Source: Planctomyces sp. (GTDB lineage Bacteria > Planctomycetota > Planctomycetia > Planctomycetales > Planctomycetaceae). From it: DNA of 64,000 nt. Positions 29,881 to 59,810 of this stretch are shown piece after piece. Position 1 is the first letter of the stretch, and each line of letters starts with the position of its first letter. A model generated the notes under the pieces. That model worked only from the letters and a program-made list of their open reading frames with translations, had not been told where the DNA came from and ran no database searches. Location: positions 62,001 to 126,000 of the forward strand of contig JAEUIH010000001.1 of the NCBI GenBank assembly GCA_016795105.1, in the 5' to 3' direction. The position numbers were made by a program, and so were the translations under genes.

Positions 29881-30429
29881 TCAATCGGGTTCCATCGCCT
29901 GGATCAGCCAGGCTCTGGCGAACATCCAGTGGCGGCTGGCGGTGGCTCTGGAGATGCCAATCGCATCGGCTGCGTCCTGTTCTGAAAGACCAGCGAAGTA
30001 TCGCAACTTCACCAGCTCCGCCTTCTGTGGATCGAGTTCCGTGAATCGTGACAGGGCGTCATCGAGTACCAACAGATTCCTGTCCGGTAGGTCAACGAGA
30101 CTGACCGCTTCAGACAAACTGACTCGCTGGCGATCACCACCATGCTGAGGGCGTAGTCGTCATCGAGCTCGGTCGACGAGGATTTGCCGCATGGCCTCCG
30201 CTGCGACTCTGAAGAAATGATGTCGATCGTTGAATCCACGGTCTCCAACGAGTTTTATATATGCCTCATGGACCAGGCCCGTGGCATCGAGTGTATGTCC
30301 TGGCCTCTCCTGTGCCATCTTTGCTGCGGCGAGGCAGCGCAATTCCTCGTAGACCATTGGCAGCAATTCCGCCGCGGCTTGCTGATCGCCACGGTTCGCT
30401 GCTTCGAGGAGTCGTGTCATTTGCGTCAT
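29881..30429 (-). pseudogene. ECF RNA polymerase sigma factor interrupted by in-frame TGA
   Basis: Two segments in one reading frame make a complete planctomycete-type ECF sigma factor (182 codons before the final stop from ATG 30429). The first half (to 30163) has LLPMVYEELRCLAA, HTLDATGLVHEAYIKLV and AEAMRQILVDRAR, the sigma-2 region. Then a TGA at 30160-30162 interrupts, and the same frame continues RLRPQHGGDRQRVSL into the sigma-4 region, with LVKLRYFAGLSEQDAADAIG and SRATASRHW. The expected codon is probably Arg CGA, one transition away. ATG 30429 overlaps the kinase stop (ATGA); ATG 30453 is possible. As it stands the product lacks the -35-binding domain, unless the TGA is read through or is a sequencing error. 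Confidence 0.85.
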
Positions 30430-33400: not shown

Positions 33401-34577
33401 TCGGCGGACAAGCCTCGACCGTGTCTCCCTTTAAATATCTCTGCACGTCTTTCGCCAGACCATTCGCTGTGTCGTAGCGACGAGTACGATCTTTCTCTAG
33501 GGCTTTCATGACGATCCAGTCAAGTTCCCCCCGAACCAGACCGGCTAGCTTCCCAGCATCCACTTGACGACTCGCCGCAAGACTGGGCAAAGTCTTGTCT
33601 GTCGAAAGCCGCAAACTCGGTCGAGGCGGTTCCTCTTCACGAATCAGTCGCTTCACTTCCTCCCACGCGACCTCTCGGAACCGCGCCTTTTCCAGCGGAG
33701 TCGTTCCGGTTAAGAGTTCGTAGAGAATTACTCCAAGCGCATAGATATCCGTGCGAGTGTCCACATCCAGAGCGTTGATACCGACCTGTTCAGGGGCCAT
33801 ATAAAGTGGTGTGCCGACAACGGTACCATACGCAGTATGCAATGTGCGTTCAGTCAGCATCTGCGATGAGTTGAGTGCCTTGGCGAGTCCAAAGTCAATC
33901 ACTTTCGGAACCGCCCTGCCGTCGTGTTCTGTAACGAGCACATTTGCAGGTTTCAGGTCACGATGAATGATTGCCTTCTGATGCGCGTGCTGTACCGCTG
34001 AGCATATTTGCACAAAAAGGTCCAAACGCTCGCTGACTGAAAGTTTACGTGCATCACAGTATTCGGTGAGCGGCAAACCCTTGACCAATTCCATTGCAAA
34101 GTACGGTCGCCCATTGTCGTCGGTGCCAGCATCATGAACTTTGGCGATGTTGGGATGGTCCATCAGGGCAAGTGCCTGTCGTTCCGCTTCAAAGCGGGCG
34201 AGGACTGCTTTTGAATCCATTCCCGCCTTAATGAGCTTTACAGCAACCAACCTCTTGACCGGCTCCTTCTGCTCAGCCATCCAAACTGTGCCCATGCCCC
34301 CATCACCGATTTGCTCAAGTAACTTATATCGCCCCGCAATGATTGCCCCGACCATCTGAGGATTTGAAATTAAGGTCGAGTCCATCCCATGGTTCGCAAC
34401 GATCGGATGATCGAGCTGATGATTCACACGATCGTGGGCCTGCAGAAGTCCGTCCAGCTGCTGACGAAGACCCTCGTGCCCCGCACACTCTCGATCAAGG
34501 AACGCCTCCCGAGGCTCTCCTGACAGTTCAATGGCGGCGGCAAAAATAGACTCGATTTGCTTTGAGATGTTCGGCAT
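30426..34577 (-). CDS. Large membrane Ser/Thr protein kinase with TPR-like tail
   Basis: The start at ATG 34577, behind GGAGAAA, gives 1383 residues; an upstream in-frame ATG (34655) has less support. After a conserved planctomycete leader (SKQIESIFAAAIEL), the Hanks-type kinase domain runs from about 82 to 365: GDGGMGTVW (glycine loop), VAVKLIKAG (Lys), HRDLKPANVLV (catalytic Asp), DFGLAKAL and APEQ. A membrane helix follows (about 427-447), then a charged coiled coil rich in RRAEEEKRAAE, then about 850 residues of helical TPR-like repeats outside the membrane. It should phosphorylate Ser/Thr in response to an external cue. It overlaps the broken ECF sigma gene by ATGA. Confidence 0.92.
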   Translation of the reverse strand: MPNISKQIESIFAAAIELSGEPREAFLDRECAGHEGLRQQLDGLLQAHDRVNHQLDHPIVANHGMDSTLISNPQMVGAIIAGRYKLLEQIGDGGMGTVWMAEQKEPVKRLVAVKLIKAGMDSKAVLARFEAERQALALMDHPNIAKVHDAGTDDNGRPYFAMELVKGLPLTEYCDARKLSVSERLDLFVQICSAVQHAHQKAIIHRDLKPANVLVTEHDGRAVPKVIDFGLAKALNSSQMLTERTLHTAYGTVVGTPLYMAPEQVGINALDVDTRTDIYALGVILYELLTGTTPLEKARFREVAWEEVKRLIREEEPPRPSLRLSTDKTLPSLAASRQVDAGKLAGLVRGELDWIVMKALEKDRTRRYDTANGLAKDVQRYLKGDTVEACPPSFGYRLRKAYRRNKPAVLVTSAFVGLITIAAVMGVFLAIRAEQARRGEVAERRKAEQREAEANEQRALAMQEQRRAEEEKRRAEEEKRAAEAVRSFLQDDLLRQADIIKQAESMPRTGDDFEIKLNPTINELLDRAAAQLTEERIEQKFPNLPFVQAEVLHAVASAYTGIGQDEKARPLIDRAVPLYLASRGPDDRATLASRVTQASICGQMDGREKGEQMLAAVAEDCRRVFGSRDRMGFDAAIWYGRSLAIDNPSEAIPYLQKLKSEGIEYYGGDDSLTILSAGHLAMAYRLAGRIPEAIREMEEVLEKVRNARVRPDYPWFVAGFGELADAYSASNRPDKAIEVWREVIRQWELRGQQFHHGTWFARHEIGLLHAREGETEVALQLFQENVQAAPLPPFVMLSNYEARRMAIILGREDDALEFARSGLAAMLSGQPTLRNWYTGMARLQVGELLLKRNEYAEAESLLLAAVADLVEFNHSRASFDQGGMAAAAHRALTELYTMTNRPADATRIRASHAELIASGEIKGGKPWDIFSAGDYELAASTFEAEAKTASSAEAKSKAYHGLFLSEQKLGWADDARMHAQAAIDVIIAARGPKHRSYQLGRARSALGVLLCELKDPIAAEPHLLDGCREVADHANQIPAYDYPHRVDAFVWLIHILEQSNRAAEAEKWVLEWQQIFGGLLQKTLHNGKLSAATVDLVEQSVLMNTSVARHKEALALFQEVNARYLPANKATADAWLTLSGNVFNNYEGELRQDLMKPWAELRIPALERNLNTLRESNPSELELLRATNRLLFSYLHADRTADTIRLAEEVIARHTAIGWKSDAETVNSYGSTAKSVTLAGRPDLAVEMSLAVLTEVQKSNPSPEVLATATFSLGFARFHANQHAKSEEHFREALRLQSELNGKHWKAAKYKAWLGFALHELKMYSDAESVLNEAYSDWEQQSASTPAWEKQHPLLIAVRMASLYEAIGNPNEAAKWKTRSEQK

Positions 34578-34710
34578 GTGCGGATTTCTCCAAGATTCAG
34601 TGCTTTGGCTCCGCTGGAGAAGCGAGCTGATCGGCTGGCGCGCCTCACAGATCATTAGAAAAAGTGCACGAATAGAGTCTAATCACCCCGTTTACCTTCT
34701 GCTACAGACG

Positions 34711-34810: not shown

Positions 34811-37800
34811 TTAGCTCAGCAGAATGCTCTTCGATCTGAGCAGACTTACAGCCCCTTCTCCGTCAGCCAGTGAAACAGTCACAGTCCTTGTCAATAGCGA
34901 TGGCGTAGGTGACAGGCTGTGGAATGTCACGCTCCGCAGAAGTTTCTGAACGGCAGCCTGAGTCGCATTGCTGTTCAGATTCACCGTAAGCGTCGTTGTT
35001 CCGGCAAACGTACCGATAAGCGTTCCCTCATAGAAGACATCGTTGCCAGACACGCTGATCTCATCAGCCCCCGTGCCGACACTCAGAATACTCAGCCGAT
35101 CAGTGCTTTGTTTGTTAGTCGTCAGGCTGACTTTCAGAACTCCACCGCTGAAAGCTGAGGTATCCACGTCGGTCACGGTCGCGTTGTCATCGACAATGAC
35201 AGGTGAACCGCCAATATTGTACGTTGACTCCCCTTCAAATCCGCCGATCACAGCAGCGTCGTTAACGGATGTCACGTTGATCGACTTAGTCACCGGAATC
35301 GCTGTACCACCATCGCCGTCGGTCAGTTGAATTCGAACTGTACGTGTCAGCGTGGATGGATCCTGTGAAACATTACCAAACGTCAGGTTGCGTACGACTG
35401 CCTGAACAGCGGATCCAGTTGATGACGAATTGAACGACACCACCAGTGGATCGGCCCCTGAAGTTCCACCCGTAAACGTACCGATTACGACTGTCTCCAC
35501 GACTCCATTGATCCGCACTCCGTACGTAATTTGATTCCCGGAGAGTCCGATTCGCCCCAGTTCCAGTCCCTGATTTCGAATCCCCAGTCGGTCATCCACA
35601 TGACCATTTGTTGGCAGGTCCACAGTGAGTATTCCGCCATCAAAGTTCAACAGATCGGCATCGTTAACGGTGGCATTCGAGTCGATCAGGAAGTTCATCG
35701 CGTCTTCTCTGTAGGTCACGCCCGGCTCGAATCCCCCGATCACGGGCGCATCGTTTGAGCCGGTTACATCGACCGTCGTTGTGATCGCGAGGCTGGTCCC
35801 ACCGTCTCCGTCGGACAGAGTTGCTGAAATCGTGCGAGTCGAACTGTTGACGGCATCGGATATGTTACTGAACTGAATATTCCTGAGCAGTGCCGTCACC
35901 GCTTCTGCCGTAGAGCTGGCGTTGAGTGTAACGACCAGAGAATATGTCGTCCTGACCGGATACGTTCCAATGATCGTACCTCCATAGCTCACATCAACCA
36001 GCAATGCGTCGATCGCATTGGGACTAATGCTGATCTGACCGGCGCCGGTTCCTTCATTTCGGATAGAAATCCTGTCTGTCGTCTGCTGATTTGCAGAAAC
36101 TCGCACCGAGAGCTTACCCAGTTCAAAGTTCGCAGAGTCCGCATCAACTGCTGTCGATTCTGGCCCAATCAGGATTGGCGCACCATTCTCTGTGTATGTC
36201 AGCCCACCTGCCAGATTAGCCAGAACCGGCCTGTCATTGAGTACAGTGACAAGAATCGACTTCGTGACCGGAGCACTGTCTCCGCCGAGCCCGTCAGTCA
36301 ATTGTACCTGGACAGTTCGCGTTGCTGCGGGAGGGTTTTCTGAGACACTGCTGAATGCCAGGTAACGAAGGGACTGCTGTACCGCGATGCGTGAAGAGCC
36401 CTGTTCGAATGTCAGAACAAACGGAGCATCACCAGATGTGCCCCCGGTAAATGTGCCAATCGCGACGCCACCGTAGCTCACCACGTTTCCGCTGACTCCT
36501 ATCTGCCCCGCAAGATTCCCCTGATGCAAAATCGAAATCCGATCATCGGCTTCCTGATTGGCAGTCAGGCTGACGATTAATCGACCGCCTTTAAAATCTG
36601 TCGAATCAACGTCTGTCACTGTCGCGTTGGAATCCAGCCGAACCGGAAGCGAGTTCTCTCTGTAGGTGACCGGGGCGACTGGCGTCTCGAATGCGCCAAT
36701 CACAGGTGCAGCCGACTCTGCCACGTCGGTGAGTGTCAACGTGTAATCGACTGAGGCGTCCGGAGTCGTTCCCACGCTCGGGTCATCAACGTTGACAGTG
36801 ACGGTGTACGTCGACTTGTTTTCGAAGTCCAGAACCGTCCCCTTCTTCAGGAACAACTCAGAACCGACAAGTTCGAAGAACGCATCATCGGCACCTGACA
36901 GGCTAAGCATGTTCGTTCCACGCCCATCGTCAGTTACTGTAATGTCCGCAACTTTCACCGGAGACAACGTATACGTGTATTCCGGCAATTCCGCGATAAC
37001 ATTCTCCAGCACGACGTCGGACGGTGCTTGATTGCCAGCCGGGTTTTCACTGCCAATATGATCAAGCGACTCGCCATCGAAGGATGCGGGATATGCATCT
37101 CCCGTAATCAGGTTCCAGTTTGGTGCCGTGCCTTCGACGCCGCCACCGAACCAGTCTGCCGAGGTATTGCCAGTTGATACTCCTCGACGTGCCACATAGT
37201 TCGCGGTGGCACTCGTCAAGACAACATCTTTGCCGGTGGAGCCTACAAACGTGGCAGCCGTTGAATACACAACGTCGCTGAAGGCAGCGTCATTGGCATT
37301 GTCCAGTACTGCAATACTGTCGAGGATGCTCCAGTTTGAGAATACGGTTCCGTCGGCAAAGCCGTTGTTGTCTGCGTCGATATCGTCAGACAGTGTTGGT
37401 GCCGCCAACGACTGCATCAGGATGAACGTCACTGAAGAGTTTTCGATGTCTGTACCAGCGTCGGCACTGAAGTTCGCCGCCCCGCTGAAACCTGTCCCCG
37501 TTCCAACAACGGATGTCGCAGATCCGTCAACCGTGTAGGTATTTCCGTTTTGCCGAACGACAAGGTAGCCATTGGAACCTATGGTCAAGCCACCCAGACC
37601 GAAGATCGTCTGGACATCACCCGCACCCGTCGTGTCTCCTTCAATCCCGACAAGATAGACGCCACCCGGAATCACATAGTTGGCTGTGCCGCGAATTTCA
37701 ATGTACTCATTTGGACCATCGGTGCCCGGTGGGTTGAATAGCACTTCATTGATATAGAGACCCACAGCCGGTGTCAGGTCGTTGTCGCTGATGTTTGCAA

Positions 37801-40800
37801 TCAGGTCCGGAATCACCAGCGAAACCGGGTAGCTCGCATCCGCAGACGATGTGATGTCATGTGTGATTGTGCCGGTATGAGCGTTCTCCTCGAGAGGATC
37901 ATCGACGGCTCGTACGTACACAGTCTGTGCTCTCAATGTCGTAAACGACAGAACCACAGACGCCGAGTAGGTGACACCATCTGTGCTGACTTCAATATCG
38001 GCATCACCAGCGACGGTGATCTGAACCTCACTGGACGGAATCGTCTCAAGGCCGATTGTGTATGTATCAGTCTGCCCACCTTCCGCTAAGTTTGTTGAAC
38101 CATCGGACTCGGCGATCGTCACACTGGGTGTATCGTTGTCCGTTACGTTGGCTGTGATACTTTCGATCACTGTTGTCAGCGGATAGTTCGTCGCATCGGC
38201 CGTGGCAGTCACTGCGTGTGTGATCGTGCCGGTATGAGTTCCTTCGGCGGAAAGATCATCGATCGCTCGAATGGTGATCGTCTGAGGCGTATTGTCGGTA
38301 AAGGTGAGAATCGCAGAACTACTGAAATTGACGCCATCCACGCTGACTTCGGTCTGCGAATCTGCTGTCACTGTGACTTCAACCGCACCTTCCGGAACAG
38401 TGTCCAGACTGATGGTGTAGGTATCCGTTGTCCCTGCCTCGGAGATCTCGGTCGATCCGTCGGATTGACTGATAGCCACACCAGGTGATTGACTGTCACC
38501 GGGGTTTTCACTGCCAATATGATCAAGCGACTCGCCATCGAAGGATGCGGGATATGCATCTCCCGTAATCAGGTTCCAGTTTGGCGCTGTGCCTTCGACG
38601 CCGCCACCGAACCAGTCCGAGGAGGTATTGCCAGTTGATACTCCTCGACGTGCCACATAGTTCGCGGTGGCACTCGTCAAGACAACATCTCTGCCAGTGG
38701 AACCTACAAAGGTAGCAGCCGTTGAATACACAACGTTGCTAAAAGCGGCGTCGCTGGCATTGTCCAGCACTGCAATACTGTCGAGGATGCTCCAGTTTGA
38801 GAACACGGTACCGTCGGCGACGCCGTTGTTGTCTCCGTCAATGTCGTCAGACAGATTCGGTGCCGCAGATGCCTGCATCAGGATGAACGTCACGGAGGAG
38901 TTTTCGATGTCCGTGCCAGCGTCAGCACTGAAGTCTGCCGCCCCGCTGAAACCTGTCCCCGTTCCGACAATGGATGTCGCAGATCCGTCAACCGTGTAGG
39001 TATTTCCGTTCTGCCGAATGACAAGGTAGCCATTGGAGCCTATGGTCAAGCCACCCAGACCGAAGATCGTCTGGACATCACCCGCACCCGTCGTGTCTCC
39101 TTCAATCCCGACAAGATAGACGCCACCCGGAATCACATAGTTGGCCGTACCGCGAATTTCAATGTACTCATTTGGACCATCGGTGCCAGGCGGGTTGAAT
39201 AGCACTTCATTGATATAGAGACCCACAGCCGGTGTCAGGTCGTTGTCGCTGATGTTTGCAATCAGGTCCGGAATCACCAGCGAAACCGGGTAGTTCGCAT
39301 CCGAAGATGACGTGATGTCATGCGTGATTGTGCCGGTATGTGAGTTCTCTTCAGTCGTATCATCGATGGCTCGTACGTACACAGTCTGCGCTGTCGATGT
39401 CGTAAACGACAGGACCACAAACGCGGAATAGGTCACACCATCCGTACTGACTTCTGCATCGGTATCACCGGCGACGGTGATCTGAACCTCACTGGATGGA
39501 ATCGTGTCAAGGCCGATCGTGTATGTGTCGGTCTGCCCGCCTTCAGCGACGTTTGTGGAACCATCGGACTCCGTGATCGTCACACCGGGTGTATCGTTGT
39601 CCGTGACGCTGGCGGTGACACTTTCGATGACTGTTGTCAGCGGATAGTTCGTCGCATCAGCGGTGGCAGTCACTGCGTGTGTGATCTTACCGGTATGAGT
39701 TCCTTCGGCCGAAAGATCGTCGATCGCACGTACGGTGACAGTCTGAGGTGCATCGTCAGTAAACGTCAAAATCGCAGAACTACCAAAGTTGACACCATCC
39801 AGGCTGACCTGAGTCTGCGAATCCGCGGTCACTGTGATTTCAACGGCACCTTCGGGAACTGTATCCAGACTGACGACATAGGTATCCGTTGTCCCTGCTT
39901 CTGAGATCTCGGTCGATCCGCCAGACTGGCTGATAGTTACACCCGGAGACTCTGAAGACCCCTCTGGTGTCAACGCGACGCCTCGGAAGACAACACCGGC
40001 AGGTAATGAAACGATGAGATTCGCCGTCCCGTTATTGCTGGCATTGTAGCCTGACGTATCCGTTAACGCGACAACGCCTGGTGATGCTCCCTGTCGGGTT
40101 GCATAGAGGGTGACCGTGGAACCAGAAACCACACCAGTCAGGCCACGGTAGTCGTCGGTATTCGCACCAATGACATTGTTTAGAGTCCACGAGCCAGCGA
40201 CGAGTGAAAACTTGCGGATTCCACCACCCGCATCATCATCGGCGACGTACAGCGTATCGACGCCGACATTGCCATCAAGGTCTGCAAAGAAATAGCCATA
40301 GGGCGATGACACAGTGGCCGAACTGATGCCATTCAGATTCGTGATCGCCTGTCCGGATGTCGTAGGCAATCCCGTTCCAACCGACGCCAGTCGGGTTGTC
40401 CCTGATCCAGATGAAGTATACAGCTGATTTGCGCCACTTTGATCCTGCTGAATTGTCACCATGCGCACATTTGTCACAGTCTCACCGATCTGCGTCGATG
40501 CACCGGTTGCACCAAATGTGGTGTAGCGAACGCTGCCGGCACCGGTTCCCATGTAGAATGAAGAACCGTCCAGGCTTGCAACGCTGCGGAAGTTGTTGAG
40601 TCCTCCGTCCGAGAATGTCGTCGTCGTGTCAAAAACGCCGTCCGCACCGACGCGGCCAATCACTCGATTGATTGTTGCGGGATCGCTTCCAGCGACAGAC
40701 GCGGTTCCGACAGCTGCGTCATATCCTGAGATAATCAAGTATTGTCCATCGACGGATCGAGTCAGGTATCCGTTTGAAGAGGCACTTCCACTGTCCGTCA

Positions 40801-41086
40801 GTGTCTGATGAGGACCATTGTCGCTCGTCGGTGCGGCGATCGACTGAACGAGGACTCCGGACGGAGTGTATTCATCGAGAAACACGGCGGTCGCAGCATT
40901 TGTGGTCCCGTTAATTCGTTCAACAACAATGTTTCCCCCGGTGAAGGCAGCCAGCAGAGTTCGAACTTCCAGTTTCTCACCTGTCGCTTGCGACCGCTGG
41001 GCAATACGACGTTTAGAGCTTTGGGATTTGCCAAAATTCTCTATCAGACTTCTACGCAGACCATTGATCCAGTCCAATCGCAACAT
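34811..41086 (-). CDS. Giant extracellular protein: Calx-beta-like, lamin-tail and cadherin-like repeats
   Basis: The start at ATG 41086, behind TGGAG, gives 2091 residues. The N-terminus (MLRLDWINGLRRSL, basic stretch, then LEVRTLLAAF) is the typical planctomycete surface-protein leader ending in LE-x-R-LLA. After a domain of about 340 residues come two near-identical 487-residue blocks (about 375-861 and 862-1348). Each block has two Calx-beta-like repeats and one lamin-tail domain (LYINEVLFNPPGTDG). A cadherin repeat (about 1352-1470) and four related cadherin-like repeats follow, each with a (T/S)Y-x-E or Y-x-I-G opening and a V-x-D-x-D step. It probably forms a Ca-binding adhesive surface filament. 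No enzymatic motif or C-terminal sorting signal is seen. Confidence 0.88.
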   Translation of the reverse strand: MLRLDWINGLRRSLIENFGKSQSSKRRIAQRSQATGEKLEVRTLLAAFTGGNIVVERINGTTNAATAVFLDEYTPSGVLVQSIAAPTSDNGPHQTLTDSGSASSNGYLTRSVDGQYLIISGYDAAVGTASVAGSDPATINRVIGRVGADGVFDTTTTFSDGGLNNFRSVASLDGSSFYMGTGAGSVRYTTFGATGASTQIGETVTNVRMVTIQQDQSGANQLYTSSGSGTTRLASVGTGLPTTSGQAITNLNGISSATVSSPYGYFFADLDGNVGVDTLYVADDDAGGGIRKFSLVAGSWTLNNVIGANTDDYRGLTGVVSGSTVTLYATRQGASPGVVALTDTSGYNASNNGTANLIVSLPAGVVFRGVALTPEGSSESPGVTISQSGGSTEISEAGTTDTYVVSLDTVPEGAVEITVTADSQTQVSLDGVNFGSSAILTFTDDAPQTVTVRAIDDLSAEGTHTGKITHAVTATADATNYPLTTVIESVTASVTDNDTPGVTITESDGSTNVAEGGQTDTYTIGLDTIPSSEVQITVAGDTDAEVSTDGVTYSAFVVLSFTTSTAQTVYVRAIDDTTEENSHTGTITHDITSSSDANYPVSLVIPDLIANISDNDLTPAVGLYINEVLFNPPGTDGPNEYIEIRGTANYVIPGGVYLVGIEGDTTGAGDVQTIFGLGGLTIGSNGYLVIRQNGNTYTVDGSATSIVGTGTGFSGAADFSADAGTDIENSSVTFILMQASAAPNLSDDIDGDNNGVADGTVFSNWSILDSIAVLDNASDAAFSNVVYSTAATFVGSTGRDVVLTSATANYVARRGVSTGNTSSDWFGGGVEGTAPNWNLITGDAYPASFDGESLDHIGSENPGDSQSPGVAISQSDGSTEISEAGTTDTYTISLDTVPEGAVEVTVTADSQTEVSVDGVNFSSSAILTFTDNTPQTITIRAIDDLSAEGTHTGTITHAVTATADATNYPLTTVIESITANVTDNDTPSVTIAESDGSTNLAEGGQTDTYTIGLETIPSSEVQITVAGDADIEVSTDGVTYSASVVLSFTTLRAQTVYVRAVDDPLEENAHTGTITHDITSSADASYPVSLVIPDLIANISDNDLTPAVGLYINEVLFNPPGTDGPNEYIEIRGTANYVIPGGVYLVGIEGDTTGAGDVQTIFGLGGLTIGSNGYLVVRQNGNTYTVDGSATSVVGTGTGFSGAANFSADAGTDIENSSVTFILMQSLAAPTLSDDIDADNNGFADGTVFSNWSILDSIAVLDNANDAAFSDVVYSTAATFVGSTGKDVVLTSATANYVARRGVSTGNTSADWFGGGVEGTAPNWNLITGDAYPASFDGESLDHIGSENPAGNQAPSDVVLENVIAELPEYTYTLSPVKVADITVTDDGRGTNMLSLSGADDAFFELVGSELFLKKGTVLDFENKSTYTVTVNVDDPSVGTTPDASVDYTLTLTDVAESAAPVIGAFETPVAPVTYRENSLPVRLDSNATVTDVDSTDFKGGRLIVSLTANQEADDRISILHQGNLAGQIGVSGNVVSYGGVAIGTFTGGTSGDAPFVLTFEQGSSRIAVQQSLRYLAFSSVSENPPAATRTVQVQLTDGLGGDSAPVTKSILVTVLNDRPVLANLAGGLTYTENGAPILIGPESTAVDADSANFELGKLSVRVSANQQTTDRISIRNEGTGAGQISISPNAIDALLVDVSYGGTIIGTYPVRTTYSLVVTLNASSTAEAVTALLRNIQFSNISDAVNSSTRTISATLSDGDGGTSLAITTTVDVTGSNDAPVIGGFEPGVTYREDAMNFLIDSNATVNDADLLNFDGGILTVDLPTNGHVDDRLGIRNQGLELGRIGLSGNQITYGVRINGVVETVVIGTFTGGTSGADPLVVSFNSSSTGSAVQAVVRNLTFGNVSQDPSTLTRTVRIQLTDGDGGTAIPVTKSINVTSVNDAAVIGGFEGESTYNIGGSPVIVDDNATVTDVDTSAFSGGVLKVSLTTNKQSTDRLSILSVGTGADEISVSGNDVFYEGTLIGTFAGTTTLTVNLNSNATQAAVQKLLRSVTFHSLSPTPSLLTRTVTVSLADGEGAVSLLRSKSILLS
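37041..38501. repeat. 1461-bp tandem duplication, copy proximal to gene 3' end
   Basis: It is collinear with 38502-39962 at an offset of 1461 bases, exactly 487 codons. Long blocks (for example around 37041-37120 and 38502-38581) are nearly identical, while the Calx-beta part is more diverged. It lies inside the giant surface protein gene. Confidence 0.9.
38502..39962. repeat. 1461-bp tandem duplication, copy proximal to gene 5' end
   Basis: Partner of 37041-38501, in direct orientation and directly adjacent. The frame is preserved across the junction, so each copy adds 487 residues to the protein. Confidence 0.9.
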
Positions 41087-41560
41087 GCTCAACAACTCCA
41101 GATAACAAAACAAAGATCTGTGGGACGGTGGTACATGCACCACTGCCAAACCGAACGAAGGTCCACTCCCCGGCCATCCCATGCTGAAGTGAATTCGGGC
41201 AGCTTTTAGGCCCCAACCGCCTAACTTGCCACGCCCCAGTTCTTCGCTTCATCCTGTTTTCACAAAACCAGGCGTTCTGTGAATTTTCTGCAGCGATTCA
41301 AATGAAGATTTGATGAAGAGTGTATGGCTTCGGCTGGAGGTCAGTGTGATTGGTAACCACGAAAGACACGAGAAGACACAATCGAACATTTCTGTGTCTC
41401 TTCCGTCTTCTAAGCGTCTTCCGTGGTCAAATTGCCAGATTCGGCAGCCAAAGAATTCCTGAAGGAACCAGAGAATTTTTTCGAAGTGATGTCGATTCAC
41501 TTCAACGTCCGACGACCAGTGTGCAGTTCTGTTCTTTCTGCATACCGAGGAATCACTGCC
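41087..41560. other. Divergent intergenic region with a fold-back repeat copy
   Basis: About 470 bases between the surface protein start and the YCII gene. Bases 41345-41430 hold the dispersed repeat in inverted orientation. Frames on both strands here continue from or overlap real genes without family resemblance and are not called. Confidence 0.55.
41345..41430 (-). repeat. Dispersed fold-back repeat, copy B
   Basis: Reverse complement of the 62530-62628 pattern. It opens GTGATTGGTAACCACGAAAG and closes GCGTCTTCCGTGGTCAAA. Its two ends are imperfect inverted repeats of each other (CCACGAAAGACACGA against CCACGGAAGACGC). Confidence 0.75.
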
Positions 41561-51453: not shown

Positions 51454-53544
51454 ATGACAACAACTGCAAATGCCGTCAATGTGAGTGACGAACGGCTCAG
51501 GATTGTTCGCGGAGCATGCGGACATGACTGTCCCGATACATGTTCATGGATGGTCGAAGTGCGTGATGGTCGTGCGCAGAGGCTCTATGGCGATCCGGAT
51601 CATCCGTTCACTCGAGGGACGCTGTGTGCCAAAGTGAACCACTACCTCGAACGCGTTTACCATCCGGAACGACTCGAATATCCACTCAGGCGAGTCGGGC
51701 CGAAGGGTGAAGGGAAGTTCGTTCGCGTGTCGTGGGATGAAGCACTCGCGGATATTGCCGCACGATGGAAATCTATCATCGCGGAATCCGGTGCCGAAGC
51801 AATCATGCCATATAGTTCTGCCGGGAATCAGGGTCTGATCCAGCATGCCTCGCTGGACCGGCGATTCTTTAGTGTTCTGGGCTGCACACAACTGGACCGC
51901 AGCATTTGCGGTGAAGTTCCGGTCGCAGGATTGTCTGTGACTCAGGGGACCGGATTCGGAGTCGATCCTGAAGAACTGGTTCACAGCAAATACATTGTGC
52001 TCTGGGGCACCAACACGATCGTGACCAACCTCCACCTCTGGCCTGTCATCCTGGAGGCTCGATCACGGGGTGCAAAGATTGTTGTAATCGATCCGATCAG
52101 GACCCGTACTGCCGAACAGGCAGACTGGCATATCCAGCCACGACCTGGCAGCGATGCGACTCTGGCCATGGCAATGATGCACATCATCATCCGCGATGAT
52201 CTTGTGGATCACGATTATGTATCAAAACACTCAATTGGCTATGAACAACTGGTAGAAAGAGTGCAACAATACGCCCCGGAACTGGTGAAGGATCGCATTG
52301 GCCTGGCTGTCGAAGAGATAGAAAAACTTGCCAGCGAATACGCTAAGGTTCAGCCATCTCTACTGCGACCGCTGATCGGTCTGGAGCATCATCGGAACGG
52401 AGCGATGATGTTTCGTACTCTTGCCTGCCTGCCGGTTCTGATCGGCTCATGGAAGCATCGAGGCGGTGGACTGTCTCGATCGACAGGTGCAGTTCAGTAT
52501 TCGACCTTGAATCATCGAGGCCTCACGATGCCTCAACTTCAGAAGCCCGGCACCCGAACACTCAACATTCGGGACCTGGGGAACGACTTATGCTCGACGA
52601 CGCTCACCCCACCTGTTCGAAGTGTGTGCATCTGGAATGCAAATCCGGTTGTCTCGACACCCAATCAACAGCAGGTCATTCGAGGACTCCTGAGGGAAGA
52701 TTTGCTGACGATTGTGCACGATCTCGTGGTCACCGACACAGCGAGGTATGCCGACTATGTACTGCCAGCGACCAGTCAGATTGAGAGTCTTGATTTGGTG
52801 CCTGCATGGGGACATCACTATCTTTCCCTCAATCAGCCTGCCATTGATCCGGTTGGTGAATCTGTGTCAAACACGGAGTTGTTTCGACGTCTTGCGGCCG
52901 CAATGGGGCTCAAAGAGCCTTTTCTGTTTGAAAGCGATGAATCACTGATCCGAACAGCCCTGAGCAGCGGCCACCCGTGGCTTGAGGGAATCACGTTCGA
53001 TCAACTGAAAGTTGCCGGCTCGATCCGGTTTAATCATGAACGAGACTGGCGACCATTTGCGGATGGGAACTTTCGCACTCCATCCGGTAAAGCAGAATTC
53101 TGGTCTCAGTCGATGCTGAAACAGGGACTTGACCCGCTTCCCTCTGGCGGTGACTTTCCACAGGCAGAGAATGGATTTCTGCAGTTGATCTCCGGAAAGA
53201 CTCTTCACTATTTGAATTCGGGCTATGGCCATATTGAACGACACCGAAAACGCGAGGGCGTTCTGTTTGTGGAGATTCACCCCGACGATGCAAACAGTCG
53301 CGGTCTTCAGGACGGGGAACTGGTCAACGTGTCGAATGAACTCGGTACCGTCACGGCGGTCTGTCGCATTTCCGATCGAATTCGGACAGGTGTCGTGTGG
53401 ATGCCGTTCGGCGGACTTGTTGATGCGGCCGGAAACAAACGTTCCATCAACAGTGTGACTCCGGAAGAACCCACCGACTGGGGCGGTGGCAGCGGCTTCT
53501 ATGATGCCTTTGTGGAAATCACACGATGTTCTGAGTCGTATTGA
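51454..53544 (+). CDS. Molybdopterin oxidoreductase with one 4Fe-4S cluster
   Basis: This 696-residue DMSO-reductase family protein has a cluster motif at Cys22, Cys26, Cys30 and Cys58 (ACGHDCPDTC then GTLCAK). The molybdopterin domain follows: FVRVSWDEALADIAARW, MPYSSAGNQGLIQHASL, a cofactor-loop SICGEVPVAG, HLWPVILEARSRGAKIVVID, and the C-terminal cofactor-binding domain with FRTPSGKAEFWS and EIHPDDANSRGLQDG. No Tat signal precedes it, so it is cytoplasmic. It groups with formate-dehydrogenase-like or general anaerobic dehydrogenases; the substrate is undetermined, and no electron-transfer subunit is adjacent. Confidence 0.88.
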   Translation: MTTTANAVNVSDERLRIVRGACGHDCPDTCSWMVEVRDGRAQRLYGDPDHPFTRGTLCAKVNHYLERVYHPERLEYPLRRVGPKGEGKFVRVSWDEALADIAARWKSIIAESGAEAIMPYSSAGNQGLIQHASLDRRFFSVLGCTQLDRSICGEVPVAGLSVTQGTGFGVDPEELVHSKYIVLWGTNTIVTNLHLWPVILEARSRGAKIVVIDPIRTRTAEQADWHIQPRPGSDATLAMAMMHIIIRDDLVDHDYVSKHSIGYEQLVERVQQYAPELVKDRIGLAVEEIEKLASEYAKVQPSLLRPLIGLEHHRNGAMMFRTLACLPVLIGSWKHRGGGLSRSTGAVQYSTLNHRGLTMPQLQKPGTRTLNIRDLGNDLCSTTLTPPVRSVCIWNANPVVSTPNQQQVIRGLLREDLLTIVHDLVVTDTARYADYVLPATSQIESLDLVPAWGHHYLSLNQPAIDPVGESVSNTELFRRLAAAMGLKEPFLFESDESLIRTALSSGHPWLEGITFDQLKVAGSIRFNHERDWRPFADGNFRTPSGKAEFWSQSMLKQGLDPLPSGGDFPQAENGFLQLISGKTLHYLNSGYGHIERHRKREGVLFVEIHPDDANSRGLQDGELVNVSNELGTVTAVCRISDRIRTGVVWMPFGGLVDAAGNKRSINSVTPEEPTDWGGGSGFYDAFVEITRCSESY

Positions 53545-53594
53545 CACTGACATCACATTCAGTTTTCACTCATCAACAATCACAGGACTTTTTC

Positions 53595-54146
53595 ATGTCT
53601 GTCAGTTCTCTGAGTCAGCGTCCCACGAGTGACGAGTATTTCGAATACTACAACACCTATATTCGACTCGTACCAAATGGCGATATTCTGCAGCATGCGG
53701 TGAATCAGCTCGAGACGGTATCACTGACACTGAAGAACATCTCAGAAGCCGACTCAACGGTGCTTCATGCTCCTTATACCTGGACCATCCGACAGGTCAT
53801 GGGGCATATCATCGACGCAGAACGGATCTTTGCAGATCGACTTCACCGTATCTCGTGCGGAGATCCTCAGCCACAGCCAGGCATGGATCAGGATCTTTAT
53901 GTAAAAGGCCAGGACCTGTCTTCCCCGTTGCTGTCTTCGCTCGCGGAAGAGTGGCAGCATCTTCGTCGTGCGAACATCCTCCTGATGTCACGAATTCGTT
54001 CTGATGCCTGGCCAATTCAGGGCACCGCGTCCGGCTATCCCGTCACCGCGCGAGCCCTCGCATGGATGTTGGTCGGGCATGTCACGCATCATATGAACAT
54101 CGTCAGCAAGCGTCTTAACTTCCGTAGATCAATTGTCCCCAATTGA
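53595..54146 (+). CDS. DinB-family protein
   Basis: ATG 53595 follows AGGA at eight bases and gives 183 residues; the frame from 53541 overlaps the preceding gene and is less likely. DinB four-helix pattern: APYTWTIRQVMGHIIDAERI gives the first histidine, and MLVGHVTHHMNIVSKRL gives the C-terminal pair, all expected metal ligands. It is distinct from the DinB-like protein at 20671. Members are often thiol-dependent transferases or of unknown function. It lies 50 bases after the molybdopterin enzyme. Confidence 0.85.
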   Translation: MSVSSLSQRPTSDEYFEYYNTYIRLVPNGDILQHAVNQLETVSLTLKNISEADSTVLHAPYTWTIRQVMGHIIDAERIFADRLHRISCGDPQPQPGMDQDLYVKGQDLSSPLLSSLAEEWQHLRRANILLMSRIRSDAWPIQGTASGYPVTARALAWMLVGHVTHHMNIVSKRLNFRRSIVPN

Positions 54147-54338: not shown

Positions 54339-57300
54339 CTACAGGCCGGAGGAGGTGAGGTGCCGGCGGAGCATGTAGCGGACATCGGATGGAATTGGAG
54401 CGGTCTGAATTTGGGGGCCTTCGTAGCGAGTTTCCCGGACCATCGAAGGATCGGCGAAATCGTAGCTTCGAAGTAGTCCCTGTTGAGTTACCCAAAGCAG
54501 CGTCGTATTTGGCGACCAACACGCAGCCCAGGTATCGTAACCGTCCGGTAAGGTGACGTTTGTGATTACGTTCTCCTTTCCGGGCGGATACCAGACGATG
54601 TCCGCCTGATTGATAGCGCGTCCGCCTGCTGGACGCCTCGAGACGACAAACCGAACCGCTTCACTGAACGTATACCGACCCGGGTTCATGGCAATCCGAG
54701 GTCGCGTCAAAGCGTCCGGATCTTTGGGAAGGACCTGCATTTTGATGTCACCACTTTTGATCGAACCGGTGACAGCCTTGTGCCATGTGCGGTTCGAGAG
54801 CAGCCTTGCCAGATTTTCGACGGCCTGCGGAGAAGTGTCCGCAAGAAACGCCTCTGCCTCTTCCGGCGTGGGAGAATTGCCAAACAGGTCAGAGATGACT
54901 CGAAACAAAACAACTTCGCGTTCTTTTGACTCGACGGGCAATGGTGTTTCACGCTGAATGCGTTCGGTGATGAACTTCAGCCACCAGTCGGCGTCGACCT
55001 TTTCATTGTGGTCTCCTGTCAGCACAATTGCACCAGGCTGGAAAACAACGGCATCATTCTGAGAGGCAAGAATCCATGATCCAACCCGAGTATTCGCCCA
55101 GTCTTCGAGCTCTTCGTCCTGCGGGCCAACTCCGATTCCAGGTGCGTTGACTTCACAGTATTCACCTGGATGCAGTCGATATGGCTCCGGGCGTCCAATC
55201 GTGGTCCAGTACGTGGACAATGTCTGTACTGACGCGCCTCCGGAGGTAATCGCTTTGTGTTCCGGCTGATGAAAACTACGAGTGACAAACATGACAGGCT
55301 CATCGCCGGAGTTGTGGAGTACAACTCGCGACTTTAACTTTGTGCCGAGCGGGTACTTTTCTGCACGCGGCTCAAAGATCCACGCCATTCGCAGCCCACC
55401 GGGGAGCTTTTCTCCCCAGTTCACATTCGCCAGTGAAGCAGGCAGTGGCTGACCTCGCTGCAGGGTATGCTCGCGAATGATGTCCATTGTCCGTTCCAGT
55501 GGAATCGTTGTCACCTCCGCTATGTCATCGAACAGCCTGACAACGTCGCTCTGATTCCAGTCGCCTGAGTGTTCGAATCGAACGACCAGCGGTCGCATCC
55601 TCTTCGCAGAGGGATCTCCAAACTCATCGCCCGAATTGATTCGAATGAACTCCTGTACCAGATCATGCAGCCGATTGATGAGTCCACCAGGGATTTGCCC
55701 GTTGAGTCTGGCGTGATCGACACAGTATCGAAACAGAGCCTGCCCTTCTTTGCTTGTCGGCATTGGCCCCTGAACTGCGATTGCACCGCGACTTAGGGGT
55801 GTTCTCAATTTACCTTTCCATGCACCTTCCGGCGCGTGAACGATGTTCAACACCATAGAAATTGCCTGTGTCGGCATCTTCAGAATACCTTCAGCCAGCA
55901 TGTCTCCCGTGTTGACGCCAGGCTCGCTCACCTTCTCCGTGTCGAACATATCGACGATGTGAGTTTCACGAGGCTGCAAGACCAGGTCTAACTTCGTCGA
56001 CTTTGCGTTTTGCAGGGCGAACATAATTTCGTCGTTCCTGTACAGGTATAACTTTCTTCCTTCAACATCTGCGGCAGGAGTATCAGTCTCATCAATTGCG
56101 GTGTCACAAAAACGAATCGGTTTGTCCGACACGTTCTGTATAACAATGTGAATCCGCCGTTCACGACCGATAACTCCATCTGCCGTGGTTTCGCGAATCA
56201 ACGAAGCAGCCCTCAGACCATCAACCGGTTCACTCCAGTCGAGGTGCTGCAGGAGGTCATCAGGGACACTTGATGGCTTCGCAGACTGCTCTGCGGTGTC
56301 CTCGTTCCTTTGAATCGTACTCAACTGAGGAGTATTCACCTGAGACAATGAAATTGTGCTGACGCTCCGAAATTTAGGGTGCTTTGACGTTTCCAGAATA
56401 TCCAGCAGAAGCGATGAGTCAGGGCCACGTCGCAAGACGCCCACAATATCCTGAACGTCAATGTTCTGCACTTCAGCGGAGCGTATCCACAGTCGGATTG
56501 AGTTGTCAGCCGGATACAGAATCCTGCCGAATCTGGTCTCAATGGACGGAGTACCCGTGCCATAATCTAAAGAACACAGGATGTCGTCTGTATTTTTTTC
56601 CGGAAACGTCAGTCGTACCCTCACATCGCCGGACTGACTTGCCCATGTACCGAACAACAACTCGTCGATCGGACGCACATCATGTGCCTTTTCAATCAGA
56701 ACTGAACCTCCCGCTTCGGAAGGCTGCCGAGGTTCCGTCGGCAGCGGCTTGAAGACTTTTTCGAAAACATGTCGAATTCCTTCCGGCATCTCGGCAGGTT
56801 TGTGATACCACGTGGTTGTTCTGATGTTCGACGGATCTGCGAAGTCAATTCGCCGCACACAGAAAGGGCTGTGAGGGCCAGCGCCTTCATCACTCAGATT
56901 GCCTCGCATCGTCCAGAAGCTCAGAGAATTACTCTCCCACGCAACATGCCACGGCTCGCGGTTGCCAAAAGCATCTGACGCAACAAAGCTGCTAAATGCA
57001 TGAGTTGTTCCGGCCGTATCTTCCGGCCATGTGAGAACCACACTGGTTGTAACGTCTGCGGCATGAAACAGTTCACGCTTCACTTCCAGTGTCACGCCCC
57101 TGGGCATTTGCCATCGACCAGCCGTCTGCGCCGTCCAGATTTCAACTTTCTCTGGTGCGATGGCCTTGATTCTAAGGCTGTCCGTCTGAATGCTGACCGG
57201 TGACGACTGAGGATCCGATAAGGTGAGTGCGGGAAGAATGCCTGTCACATAGATCTCAGATCCGTGTTGAACTTTGGGTAGTTCAATCAGGGAATACCAT

Positions 57301-59309
57301 TCCGGGTAGCCCTCCGCTTCCCGAGGTCCTCCCGATCCGACTCGAATGCGATAACCATAGACAACTGCTGTTTCACCCGGACGCAACTGCCACAATTTCG
57401 TGAATCGAATGTCTTTCAGCATCCGGGACTGCCGGCCGAATTCCGTTGAAATGCGGCGACCATCCTGATCGATCGTTTCCAGCTGCAGCGACGGATACAA
57501 GCCCGGTCCGGTTCGGCCGATACCGACTGTCAGTGTTTCGCTTCCAGTATTCCACAACTGAAGATCAAGTCGAGCGCTGTCACCCAGAATGAAGGTCTCC
57601 TTCTCACAGACCAGGGCAACTCGCAGTCCACTGGGATCAGGAGGACCAAAGGCAAGTCGTTCGAGTTCTTCTGAATCTCCGGGCGACCCAGGCCATGGCG
57701 ACTCATTGAACGCCATCTGAATCGGTTCGCCATGAATTGCGAAAACTGCTTTGATAAAATCTTGAGCCTCAGAAACGGAATACATCGCTTTCCCGGCATC
57801 GGAGGCCTGAAGCCTCTTCAATTCTGTGATCTGTTCCGTCGTCAACGAAAACGGGGATTCATCAATGCCTTCAATAAAGCGGCCAATCGCTGACCTCAAA
57901 CCTGCGACGCGAGACTCGGAAACTGAATCCGCGGAATCCCCCAAGTGCAGCCAGCGTGTGAGCAGTGCAGCGTCCATGTCACGGTAAGCCCATGGATCAA
58001 GCGGCTGTTTCTGGACGGAGTTCTCGTTGTTGGATTCTTTCCCCGCTTCAACGACCACTGCTGTCTCGTCGGCAACACTCATCATTGCGACTGGGACTGC
58101 AAATGCAGTGCTGGCGACAACCGACAACGCGAACAAGATCGTTGTAACATTCCTGCGATTCTGACGAGCATTCAAAACGGCACTCAACCGACCATGCAAT
58201 GGCGAATTCCCGGCCATTGCCAGACCACAAGCCTGCGTCCATGGAGAGCAGGTGAATCGAGTTGCAACACTCAACAGGTGCTCCGCGTATGCTGATGCAC
58301 GAACACCGCTGGCCAGCACTCGGTCGTCACATGCTCGTTCGCGTTCAATGTGCAGTCGCCACGCAGCGAACCAAACCAGCGGATTGAACCAGTACAAAGC
58401 GCATGCGGCCTGTGTCAGTGCCAGAACCGCGAGATCCCCGCGCTGCACATGGGCCAGCTCGTGCAGCAATACTGACTGCAGCTGTTCAGCATTCCATCGA
58501 GTCGCTTCGAAAGGCAACTGAAGGCGAGCCTTCCAGAGGCCCCATACGATCGGAATCGATCGGTGCGGGTCAAGCAACAACTGCACCGAGCGTTTCAGTC
58601 CTAACGTTGCCCTGGCGCTCTCAAGAGCGGCCTGGAGATTTGCCAAATCCGAAAGATGCTGACTATGGAATTGTGTTTCAACCTGACTCTGAGCCGGAAG
58701 GGCTCCTTTTCCGTTGTCCGGCATCACAGGATATGATCGCCTTGCAGAGCGTCGCAGAAAAGCAGACGCAGCCAACAACCGTGCGGTCAGCACGAAGCAA
58801 CCGACAAACCAGATTCCACTCAACCATGCCGACCACGAAATCAGCGGCTCATGACTTTCGTTCGGCCCCTGATGTGCGGTGACTGTTTCAACTGGATCAG
58901 TCGTACGCGGAGCGCCTTCTGCAGTTTGTTCCATTACGCCTGCTGGAACACCTTCAACAATTGTCGACTCCAATTCCACGACCGGTGTCCTGTCATCGGT
59001 TATTGACTGTACCGGCATCACGGAAAGTACGGGCGTAGGACTGACATTAAGGGCGGCACGAGGCTCCGACTGGAGCCACGATGGGAGGATCCGCCACGTC
59101 GGCAGCACAAGCGACAACAATGGCATCGCAAGTAAAACACTGATCGCAATCGTCCAGACAAAATGACGAGTCGCTGCGGAATCACGCCGCAACATTGCAC
59201 AGATGGAAGCTGCCAGAAGGAGAACCAGAGTCCCCTTAATGGCTGAGTCGACGAGCGGAAAGACTACGAAGCCACCAGCTGCCAGCAGAAGAGAGTTCAA
59301 TCGATTCAT
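54339..59309 (-). CDS. Very large M56 (BlaR1/MecR1-like) membrane peptidase
   Basis: This 1656-residue protein, two to three times BlaR1 size, has an N-terminal half matching M56 peptidases. Membrane helices lie at about 15-40, 48-70, 160-183 and 389-410. The zinc site HELAH is at 283-287 with a downstream ERERACDD. In BlaR1 systems this domain cleaves the BlaI repressor after a ligand is sensed outside. Here the C-terminal 1240 residues contain no penicillin-binding motif (no S-x-x-K/SxN/KTG set). They hold three related modules, each opening with a GLR-A element (DPSGLRVALV, PVDGLRAASL, PGGLRMAWI). It begins one base after the BlaI stop, so the pair is an operon. Confidence 0.88.
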   Translation of the reverse strand: MNRLNSLLLAAGGFVVFPLVDSAIKGTLVLLLAASICAMLRRDSAATRHFVWTIAISVLLAMPLLSLVLPTWRILPSWLQSEPRAALNVSPTPVLSVMPVQSITDDRTPVVELESTIVEGVPAGVMEQTAEGAPRTTDPVETVTAHQGPNESHEPLISWSAWLSGIWFVGCFVLTARLLAASAFLRRSARRSYPVMPDNGKGALPAQSQVETQFHSQHLSDLANLQAALESARATLGLKRSVQLLLDPHRSIPIVWGLWKARLQLPFEATRWNAEQLQSVLLHELAHVQRGDLAVLALTQAACALYWFNPLVWFAAWRLHIERERACDDRVLASGVRASAYAEHLLSVATRFTCSPWTQACGLAMAGNSPLHGRLSAVLNARQNRRNVTTILFALSVVASTAFAVPVAMMSVADETAVVVEAGKESNNENSVQKQPLDPWAYRDMDAALLTRWLHLGDSADSVSESRVAGLRSAIGRFIEGIDESPFSLTTEQITELKRLQASDAGKAMYSVSEAQDFIKAVFAIHGEPIQMAFNESPWPGSPGDSEELERLAFGPPDPSGLRVALVCEKETFILGDSARLDLQLWNTGSETLTVGIGRTGPGLYPSLQLETIDQDGRRISTEFGRQSRMLKDIRFTKLWQLRPGETAVVYGYRIRVGSGGPREAEGYPEWYSLIELPKVQHGSEIYVTGILPALTLSDPQSSPVSIQTDSLRIKAIAPEKVEIWTAQTAGRWQMPRGVTLEVKRELFHAADVTTSVVLTWPEDTAGTTHAFSSFVASDAFGNREPWHVAWESNSLSFWTMRGNLSDEGAGPHSPFCVRRIDFADPSNIRTTTWYHKPAEMPEGIRHVFEKVFKPLPTEPRQPSEAGGSVLIEKAHDVRPIDELLFGTWASQSGDVRVRLTFPEKNTDDILCSLDYGTGTPSIETRFGRILYPADNSIRLWIRSAEVQNIDVQDIVGVLRRGPDSSLLLDILETSKHPKFRSVSTISLSQVNTPQLSTIQRNEDTAEQSAKPSSVPDDLLQHLDWSEPVDGLRAASLIRETTADGVIGRERRIHIVIQNVSDKPIRFCDTAIDETDTPAADVEGRKLYLYRNDEIMFALQNAKSTKLDLVLQPRETHIVDMFDTEKVSEPGVNTGDMLAEGILKMPTQAISMVLNIVHAPEGAWKGKLRTPLSRGAIAVQGPMPTSKEGQALFRYCVDHARLNGQIPGGLINRLHDLVQEFIRINSGDEFGDPSAKRMRPLVVRFEHSGDWNQSDVVRLFDDIAEVTTIPLERTMDIIREHTLQRGQPLPASLANVNWGEKLPGGLRMAWIFEPRAEKYPLGTKLKSRVVLHNSGDEPVMFVTRSFHQPEHKAITSGGASVQTLSTYWTTIGRPEPYRLHPGEYCEVNAPGIGVGPQDEELEDWANTRVGSWILASQNDAVVFQPGAIVLTGDHNEKVDADWWLKFITERIQRETPLPVESKEREVVLFRVISDLFGNSPTPEEAEAFLADTSPQAVENLARLLSNRTWHKAVTGSIKSGDIKMQVLPKDPDALTRPRIAMNPGRYTFSEAVRFVVSRRPAGGRAINQADIVWYPPGKENVITNVTLPDGYDTWAACWSPNTTLLWVTQQGLLRSYDFADPSMVRETRYEGPQIQTAPIPSDVRYMLRRHLTSSGL

Positions 59310-59727: not shown

Positions 59728-59749
59728 GTGCGTTAAATTATTAACGCAC
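59728..59749. promoter_or_regulatory. Likely BlaI operator (primary palindrome)
   Basis: GTGCGTTAA, spacer ATTA, then TTAACGCAC form a perfect 9-base inverted repeat 34 bases upstream of the BlaI start. Size and symmetry suit a dimeric winged-helix repressor. Function is inferred from position. Confidence 0.72.
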
Positions 59750-59783
59750 TAAACAGCTGGAAGCAAGAGCTGTCCGCTACTTT

Positions 59784-59810
59784 TTTAACGCTTCGCTAAA
59801 TTTTTAACGA
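59784..59810. promoter_or_regulatory. Second operator-like site and half site
   Basis: TTTAACG, spacer CTT, CGCTAAA is an inverted repeat with one mismatch; TTTTTAACGA beside it (59801-59810) is a half site. All share the TTAACG core of the primary palindrome. Confidence 0.55.

Follow-up and report, generated by a model that had tools for sequence, protein, structure and literature searches.

An open reading frame in the stretch of planctomycete DNA analysed here (64,000 nucleotides, hereafter the window) encodes an M56-type, BlaR1-like membrane peptidase that continues into about 1240 additional residues. To our knowledge, M56-BlaI signalling has been described almost exclusively in connection with beta-lactam resistance, and the locus raises the question of what such a protein would perceive and which genes its partner repressor would control.

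Gene order, protease half and repressor

The features of the locus are listed in Table 1. The gene for the repressor (P0002) lies upstream of that for the M56 protein (P0001), both on the minus strand, and 1 bp separates the blaI stop from the M56 start codon. A DinB-type gene past the M56 stop (53541-54146) is convergent, and P0003 (59851-61821), to which no function was assigned, precedes blaI in the same direction and ends before the promoter. Because of these orientations and ends, the two genes are regarded as a bicistron served by a separate promoter region of 156 bp. A terminator scan at the gene end found none, and a PADLOC search for anti-phage defence matched neither gene of the pair, nor the gene next to them. 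No conserved gene was present downstream of the M56 gene among the relatives (Planctomycetota, including Planctomycetaceae and Schlesneria), and a downstream operon effector was thus not found. The host genome comprises 8.9 Mb in 391 contigs and is 99.96% complete. Elsewhere in the window, a 1409-aa Ser/Thr kinase with TPR repeats (30426-34655, minus strand) was encoded beside a 2123-aa open reading frame without a Pfam match (34811-41182, minus strand).

Table 1. Features of the blaI-M56 locus, in window coordinates.
Feature	Position	Strand	Basis or remark
M56 protease with modular extracytoplasmic region, P0001	54339..59309	-	1656-aa ORF, ATG start
M56/BlaR1-type membrane protease, residues 1-412	58074..59309	-	Pfam, alignment, hydropathy
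H1, degenerate copy of helical H unit, residues 448-536	57702..57968	-	held-out profile 13.0 bits, decoys <=3.3
Module A copy 1 (GLRVAL ... LGDSARLDLQLWNTGSE), residues 547-676	57282..57671	-	held-out profile 27.0 bits
Module B copy 1, residues 714-850	56760..57170	-	held-out profile 50.3 bits
Unit C, residues 870-1000	56310..56702	-	only beside A1-B1; relatives G095, G128, partly G188
A-like module A' (GLRAAS ... RRIHIVIQNVSDKP), residues 1020-1180	55770..56252	-	A profile 13.6 bits (1020-1086); own A' profile 149.7
H2 helical unit, residues 1187-1283	55461..55751	-	held-out profile 97.1 bits; helices in AF2 model
Module A copy 3, A3 (GLRMAW ... LKSRVVLHNSGDEP), predicted Ig-like sandwich, residues 1290-1428	55026..55442	-	169.9 bits; AF2 and fold comparison
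PSCyt2/DUF1549-like helical segment, residues 1441-1515	54765..54989	-	28.3 bits, just below cut-off 29.8
Module B copy 2, residues 1517-1651	54357..54761	-	136.0 bits
BlaI/MecI-type repressor P0002, 127 aa	59311..59694	-	PF03965, 82 bits (cut-off 22.6)
Putative promoter core TTGCTT (59766-59761), 17 bp, TAATAA (59743-59738)	59738..59766	-	inferred
Predicted BlaI operator 1, exact dyad CGTTA-N6-TAACG	59731..59746	.	overlaps putative -10 box; sole exact genome copy
Predicted BlaI operator 2, CGTTA-N6-TAGCG	59775..59790	.	44 bp upstream of operator 1
Predicted BlaI operator 3, CGTTA-N6-TAGCG	59794..59809	.	19 bp upstream of operator 2

Pfam M56 (PF05569) matched residues 223-377 of P0001 with 115.5 bits (E 3.3e-33; cut-off 31), and the HExxH and E...D gluzincin ligands of the family were present together with its conserved Arg, in the motifs HELAH (283-287) and ERERACD (322-328, third ligand E324) and at R374. 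H283, E284, H287, R290, D292, E324, D328, and R374 were invariant among 30 aligned homologues. A profile built from these homologues reached the BlaR1 cryo-EM structures (8exs/8exp) at 4e-17, aligning the HExxH and E...D motifs; the match depends on the profile, as P0001 alone retrieved nothing of note from the PDB. The catalytic residues of BlaR1 are H201ExxH, E242xxxD246, and R294 (PMC9834060). By motif and spacing, H283, E284, H287, E324, D328, and R374 correspond to BlaR1 H201, E202, H205, E242, D246, and R294, the distances being 41 residues for H283-E324 as in BlaR1, 4 for E324-D328, and 46 against 48 in BlaR1 for D328-R374. Since both the residues and their spacings match, the zinc site is intact as far as sequence can tell, and at this level the inactive site considered in the initial annotation is not indicated.

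P0001 scored 69.6 bits against the NCBIfam equivalog blaR1_generic, for which 400 are required. Side matches in Pfam and NCBIfam reflected the relationship of M56 to M48/HtpX-type proteases. Hydrophobic segments were found at residues 22-40, 51-69, 156-184, and 391-409, in positions matching those of BlaR1, whose type is marked by several TM helices and an N-out, C-out topology; hydropathy and homology, on which the topology depends, suggest that the zinc site faces the cytoplasm and that residues 413-1656 lie outside.

The family profile of the repressor met the solved MecI and BlaI structures over their full length (1okr, 8e-23; 1sd4, 3.5e-19). The scissile pair of Staphylococcus aureus BlaI, Asn101-Phe102, which defines the staphylococcal proteins and not the PF03965 family, aligned with Ala98-His99 of P0002, and Ala98-His99 was invariant across the clade. 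In addition, the autocleavage residue Phe284 of BlaR1 aligned near Ala364/Met365 of P0001. Because of these replacements, the cleavage specificity is predicted to differ from that of BlaR1.

Modules of the extra region

No Pfam transpeptidase or penicillin-binding match was obtained in residues 413-1656 (1244 aa). The sole SxxK motif, at residue 431, falls in the linker just past the last transmembrane segment, and P0001 does not have the C-terminal transpeptidase-like domain with SxxK and KTG by which BlaR1 and MecR1 are recognised. The description of the protein as a BlaR1-like peptidase with a long addition devoid of penicillin-binding motifs was therefore correct.

Internal repeats were not detected by plain blastp self-comparison of P0001 and required profiles. 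These were trained only on copies from other genomes and compared with 201 shuffled or reversed decoys, the best of which reached 6.1 bits across all module profiles; the training rows were chosen with profiles iterated with the P0001 copies, so that these copies were held out at training and not at selection. The three related modules with a GLR-A opening that had been noticed at the outset all exceeded the best decoy, whereas the repeated B and H units had been overlooked. The copies at 1020 (A') and 448 (H1) stood above the decoys by only a modest margin. The larger repeat is a cassette of the form H-A-(PSCyt2 piece)-B, which occurs twice in the relatives L067 and L087 (the last copy without most of B) and three times in L121 (one copy without B).

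The PSCyt2-like segment was assigned through PF07583, the match falling just below the cut-off and spanning only positions 4-68 of 209. The relatives L067 and L125 pass the PSCyt2 cut-off over the same short part. Compared with the PSCyt2/DUF1549 proteins of planctomycetes, to whose start this helical segment of 55-75 residues corresponds, P0001 contains only the first third, embedded in an Ig-like module, and has no cytochrome or PSD1 parts.

Structure prediction, proposed as a check in the initial annotation, succeeded for one half of the region. AF2 on residues 1010-1656 (eight rows) gave an overall pLDDT of 73, with values of about 75-92 across most of H2-A3-PSC-B2; the model of residues 435-1000 had a pLDDT of 40 and was set aside. 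In the usable part, VIA-align grouped A3 with sandwich domains of Ig-like type (TRAP-alpha, Spo0M, BsuPI, transglutaminase barrels) with Z of 6-7.5 over about 110-117 residues, and the fold matches also included RbmA. The modelling thus supports A3, the confidently modelled A copy, as an Ig-like sandwich, Z below 8 backing the fold class only. A3 resembles the BsuPI, Spo0M, transglutaminase-barrel, and TRAP-alpha domains in sandwich topology (Z 6-7 for the BsuPI/Spo0M type) and differs from them in an identity of 6-16% and in the PSCyt2-like insertion, so that the comparison supports a common fold class and no more; no Pfam sequence match of module A to BsuPI/Spo0M-type domains was found. The matched range extends through the PSCyt2 segment as far as model residue 520 (residue 1529 of P0001), and the PSCyt2-like helices are therefore read as apparently inserted before the last strand of A3. 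Modules B, H, and C showed no clear link to a known family, the fold comparison having covered mainly residues 286-520 of the 1010-1656 model and B and H only marginally.

Distribution of M56-BlaI pairs and probable exchange of sensors

The host genome encodes 12 M56 and 12 BlaI genes, paired one to one. As anticipated in the initial annotation, the module-bearing gene and others of its kind occur with BlaI: in all 32 M56 loci first inspected, an upstream blaI was present in the same orientation, and the two genes overlapped or lay no more than about 200 bp apart. This includes L079, whose M56 reading frame is broken in two, with BlaI ahead of the first part. Over 59 genomes, 261 M56 and 284 BlaI genes were counted (Pearson 0.98). 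The highest count seen was 32 M56 and 33 BlaI genes, in the 7.4-Mb genome G026.

The other 11 host pairs have the same protease and an immediately upstream BlaI gene, and differ in their sensors, which were of CarboxypepD_reg, PQQ-propeller, WD40, secretin-like or DUF1559 type, or absent (L064, 371 aa). None of those examined had the CGTTA operator class described below. A second M56 protein, of 3439 aa, with many CarboxypepD_reg repeats, PQQ-propeller segments, and BlaI upstream (L057:3249-13568, minus strand; G000:C111, about 137-148 kb), is encoded about 11 kb beyond the window end. The sensorless M56 gene (L064:2203-4690, G000:C88) overlaps BlaI and the following gene by 4 bp each, and the start of that following gene product resembles a type IV pilin-like prepilin (MTVLELLVVIGIVTLL).

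A cassette profile run over 170 genomes gave long matches in about 20. Most of its matches covered the PSCyt2 segment only, in proteins of about 1000 aa, and were set aside as probably ordinary DUF1549 proteins. A scan of contigs with a profile from a four-row alignment gave five loci. M56 was present in all cassette ORFs whose start was intact and uncut, the exceptions being cut by a contig end or broken; single A modules without a detected M56 (L130:3-2528, L136) all had a 5' side that was contig-cut or uncertain. Two damaged genes were also seen: at L134:6405-7682 (minus strand, G112), the cassette protein retains the start of the M56 gene and has lost the catalytic part, and in L122 a stop codon falls inside the cassette array.

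In a tree of 41 M56 domains, 14 cassette proteins formed one clade (100/98), and the cassette-bearing L068 and L090 fell into a different starred clade, beside the host paralogues with CarboxypepD_reg and WD40 sensors. Starred branches forced three changes of the cassette label, a number as low as which was reached in 0 of 500 shuffles, and none of the bootstrap trees could be reconciled with just one change. Further, L068 and L090 were without the CGTTA operator. Given their tree position and the missing operator, the cassette most likely moved between M56 lineages, with the operator tracking the M56-BlaI lineage and not the sensor; the alternative would be one early gain followed by several losses. 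Median identity was 79% for BlaI, 57% for the protease half, and about 31-45% for the sensor modules, a gradient that fits the expectation for a fixed output and a changing input.

Predicted operators, proposed switch and alternatives

In the promoter region, most relatives have a TTG in the corresponding position between their operators, and a sigma-70 consensus scan gave no match. The exact dyad CGTTA-N6-TAACG occurred once in the genome (22 in the reversed control) and CGYTA-N6-TARCG three times, all in the blaI-M56 promoter (115 in the reversed control); a relaxed core, GYTA-W5N-TARC, returned the same three places only, in an 80-bp stretch upstream of blaI (7-10), the reversed pattern being a rough control because word frequencies differ. 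The search was by pattern matching over the 8.9 Mb in 391 contigs, where a site inside a gap could escape it. Among 44 blaI upstream regions, a few of which are duplicate records, 14 contained CGTTA-N6-TAACG (shuffles at most 3 for any dyad) and 24 the general TA-N6-TA dyad (shuffle mean 0.44, maximum 2). Within the cassette clade, sites came in pairs spaced by 43-45 bp, roughly four turns of the helix, and the downstream member of the pair contained an AT-rich segment resembling a -10 box. Other BlaI clades had TGCTA-N6-TAGCA dyads upstream of blaI (L074, L076, L077, L079), pointing to diverged and possibly insulated operator specificities.

Since the strong dyads sit genome-wide solely in its own promoter, P0002 is predicted to control mainly its own operon; that it represses this operon and little else is the most direct reading, weaker sites being possible. 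The usual picture of a repressor released from distant targets was not supported by the genome-wide search.

Gene order, catalytic residues, module repeats, clade-specific operators, and operator uniqueness in the genome were computed directly. We consider it moderately probable that the locus is a two-gene, self-repressed switch of the BlaR1/BlaI type, operating by regulated proteolysis with a planctomycete modular sensor. P0002 would bind the two or three CGTTA-N6-TAACG dyads flanking and overlapping the promoter of its own operon, and the M56 protein would reside in the membrane and expose to the outside approximately 1240 residues made up of Ig-like, helical, and PSCyt2-derived modules. 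Binding of an extracytoplasmic partner (a polymer, a protein or an envelope-stress product) would change the modules and, by analogy with BlaR1, activate the cytoplasmic protease. BlaI would then be cut in its C-terminal dimerisation region, derepressing the blaI-M56 operon. Membrane topology, sensing, the module-to-protease step, BlaI cleavage, and autoregulation belong to the hypothetical part of this scheme. From the large, fast-changing Ig-like arrays we infer that binding of a polymer or surface protein would suit the sensor better than that of a small molecule.

A repressor with no strong sites beyond its own promoter would serve badly as an alarm, unless weaker sites or other protease substrates exist or the sensor protein is itself the output. 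The operon may accordingly be its own target, BlaI cleavage mainly raising the amount of the giant protein, with the array as effector (adhesive, scaffold, inhibitor or chaperone-like) and the protease as an expression thermostat. This less likely reading agrees with the lack of sites elsewhere in the genome even with the relaxed core, with the lack of a conserved gene downstream of M56 in relatives, with the other CGYTA-N6-TARCG sites examined in 16 cassette-bearing genomes, which were scattered and had no consistent neighbour gene, and with the resemblance of module A to Ig-like folds of the adhesion, inhibitor, and scaffold kind (RbmA, BsuPI, transglutaminase barrels); however, degenerate regulon sites can escape pattern searches, and the resemblance (Z under 8) is one of fold class only. 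A tentative form of it holds that the own operon is the sole genomic target and that the array is both input and output, a self-inducing envelope protein in parallel insulated channels. Planctomycetes would then run up to dozens of insulated M56-BlaI channels, each with its own operator and a swappable sensor.

BlaI-type repressors are winged-helix dimers and can tolerate imperfect dyads, and P0002 might, as in S. aureus, use degenerate half-sites to repress genes elsewhere as well, the sensor reporting its ligand to a regulon. Precedent is provided by BlaR1/BlaI and MecR1/MecI (PMC9834060), and the relative L121 has a GGTTA half-site. Such a conventional arrangement is nonetheless doubtful: with two mismatches allowed, 23 other matches were found in the genome against 27 in the reversed control, i.e., at background level, and these break the TA core or the CG ends kept by nearly all operators of the clade.

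It is improbable that the M56 protease does not cut BlaI and is a membrane quality-control or processing protease merely repressed by it; the S. aureus cleavage residues are not conserved and M56 is kin to the M48/HtpX-type proteases, as this would lead one to expect, whereas the almost universal one-to-one association with BlaI would be difficult to account for unless the two were functionally coupled. That the modules are chance beta-rich look-alikes in a disordered or decaying tail is scarcely credible, since the negative blastp self-comparison and the poor AF2 model of 435-1000 are outweighed by held-out profiles that exceeded every decoy and largely refute it, by recurrence of the cassette in relatives of different genera, with as many as three copies in one protein, and by the AF2 confidence over H2-A3-PSC-B2.

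Read as a self-repressed proteolytic switch, the locus shares with BlaR1-BlaI and MecR1-MecI of staphylococci and bacilli an M56 gluzincin protease whose catalytic residues and their spacing correspond, a paired BlaI repressor, a putative C-terminal extramembrane sensor, and predicted dyad operators at the operon promoter. It differs in having a 1244-aa modular sensor in place of a transpeptidase-like one with its acylated SxxK serine, no divergent or linked resistance gene, no Asn-Phe scissile pair, and a predicted CGTTA-N6-TAACG operator in place of the TACA/TGTA dyad. By sequence, P0001 and P0002 are thus members of the M56 and BlaI families and not BlaR1-type beta-lactam sensors. The suggestion of an undescribed signalling system holds insofar as no paper describing such an M56-BlaI system was found in the open literature (most subscription journals were outside the search); the system is not unique, with 12 pairs in the genome, and falls within the established M56/BlaI class. 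The novel elements are the predicted modular sensor, the probable exchange of this sensor between lineages, and a repressor with strong predicted sites confined to its own promoter.

With up to about 30 copies per planctomycete genome, exchangeable sensor modules, and clade-specific operators in the cassette clade, M56-BlaI pairs would form a large, little-described family of transmembrane signalling channels, and the predicted operator cluster, being unique in the genome, opens the question of the regulon to a direct test. A related pattern was noted in genome G035, where many CGCTA-N6-TAGCG copies with AT-rich spacers (C19, C39, C56, C73, C87, C97, C125, C130, C166, C193) lay away from the listed BlaI genes and are probably sites of another regulator.
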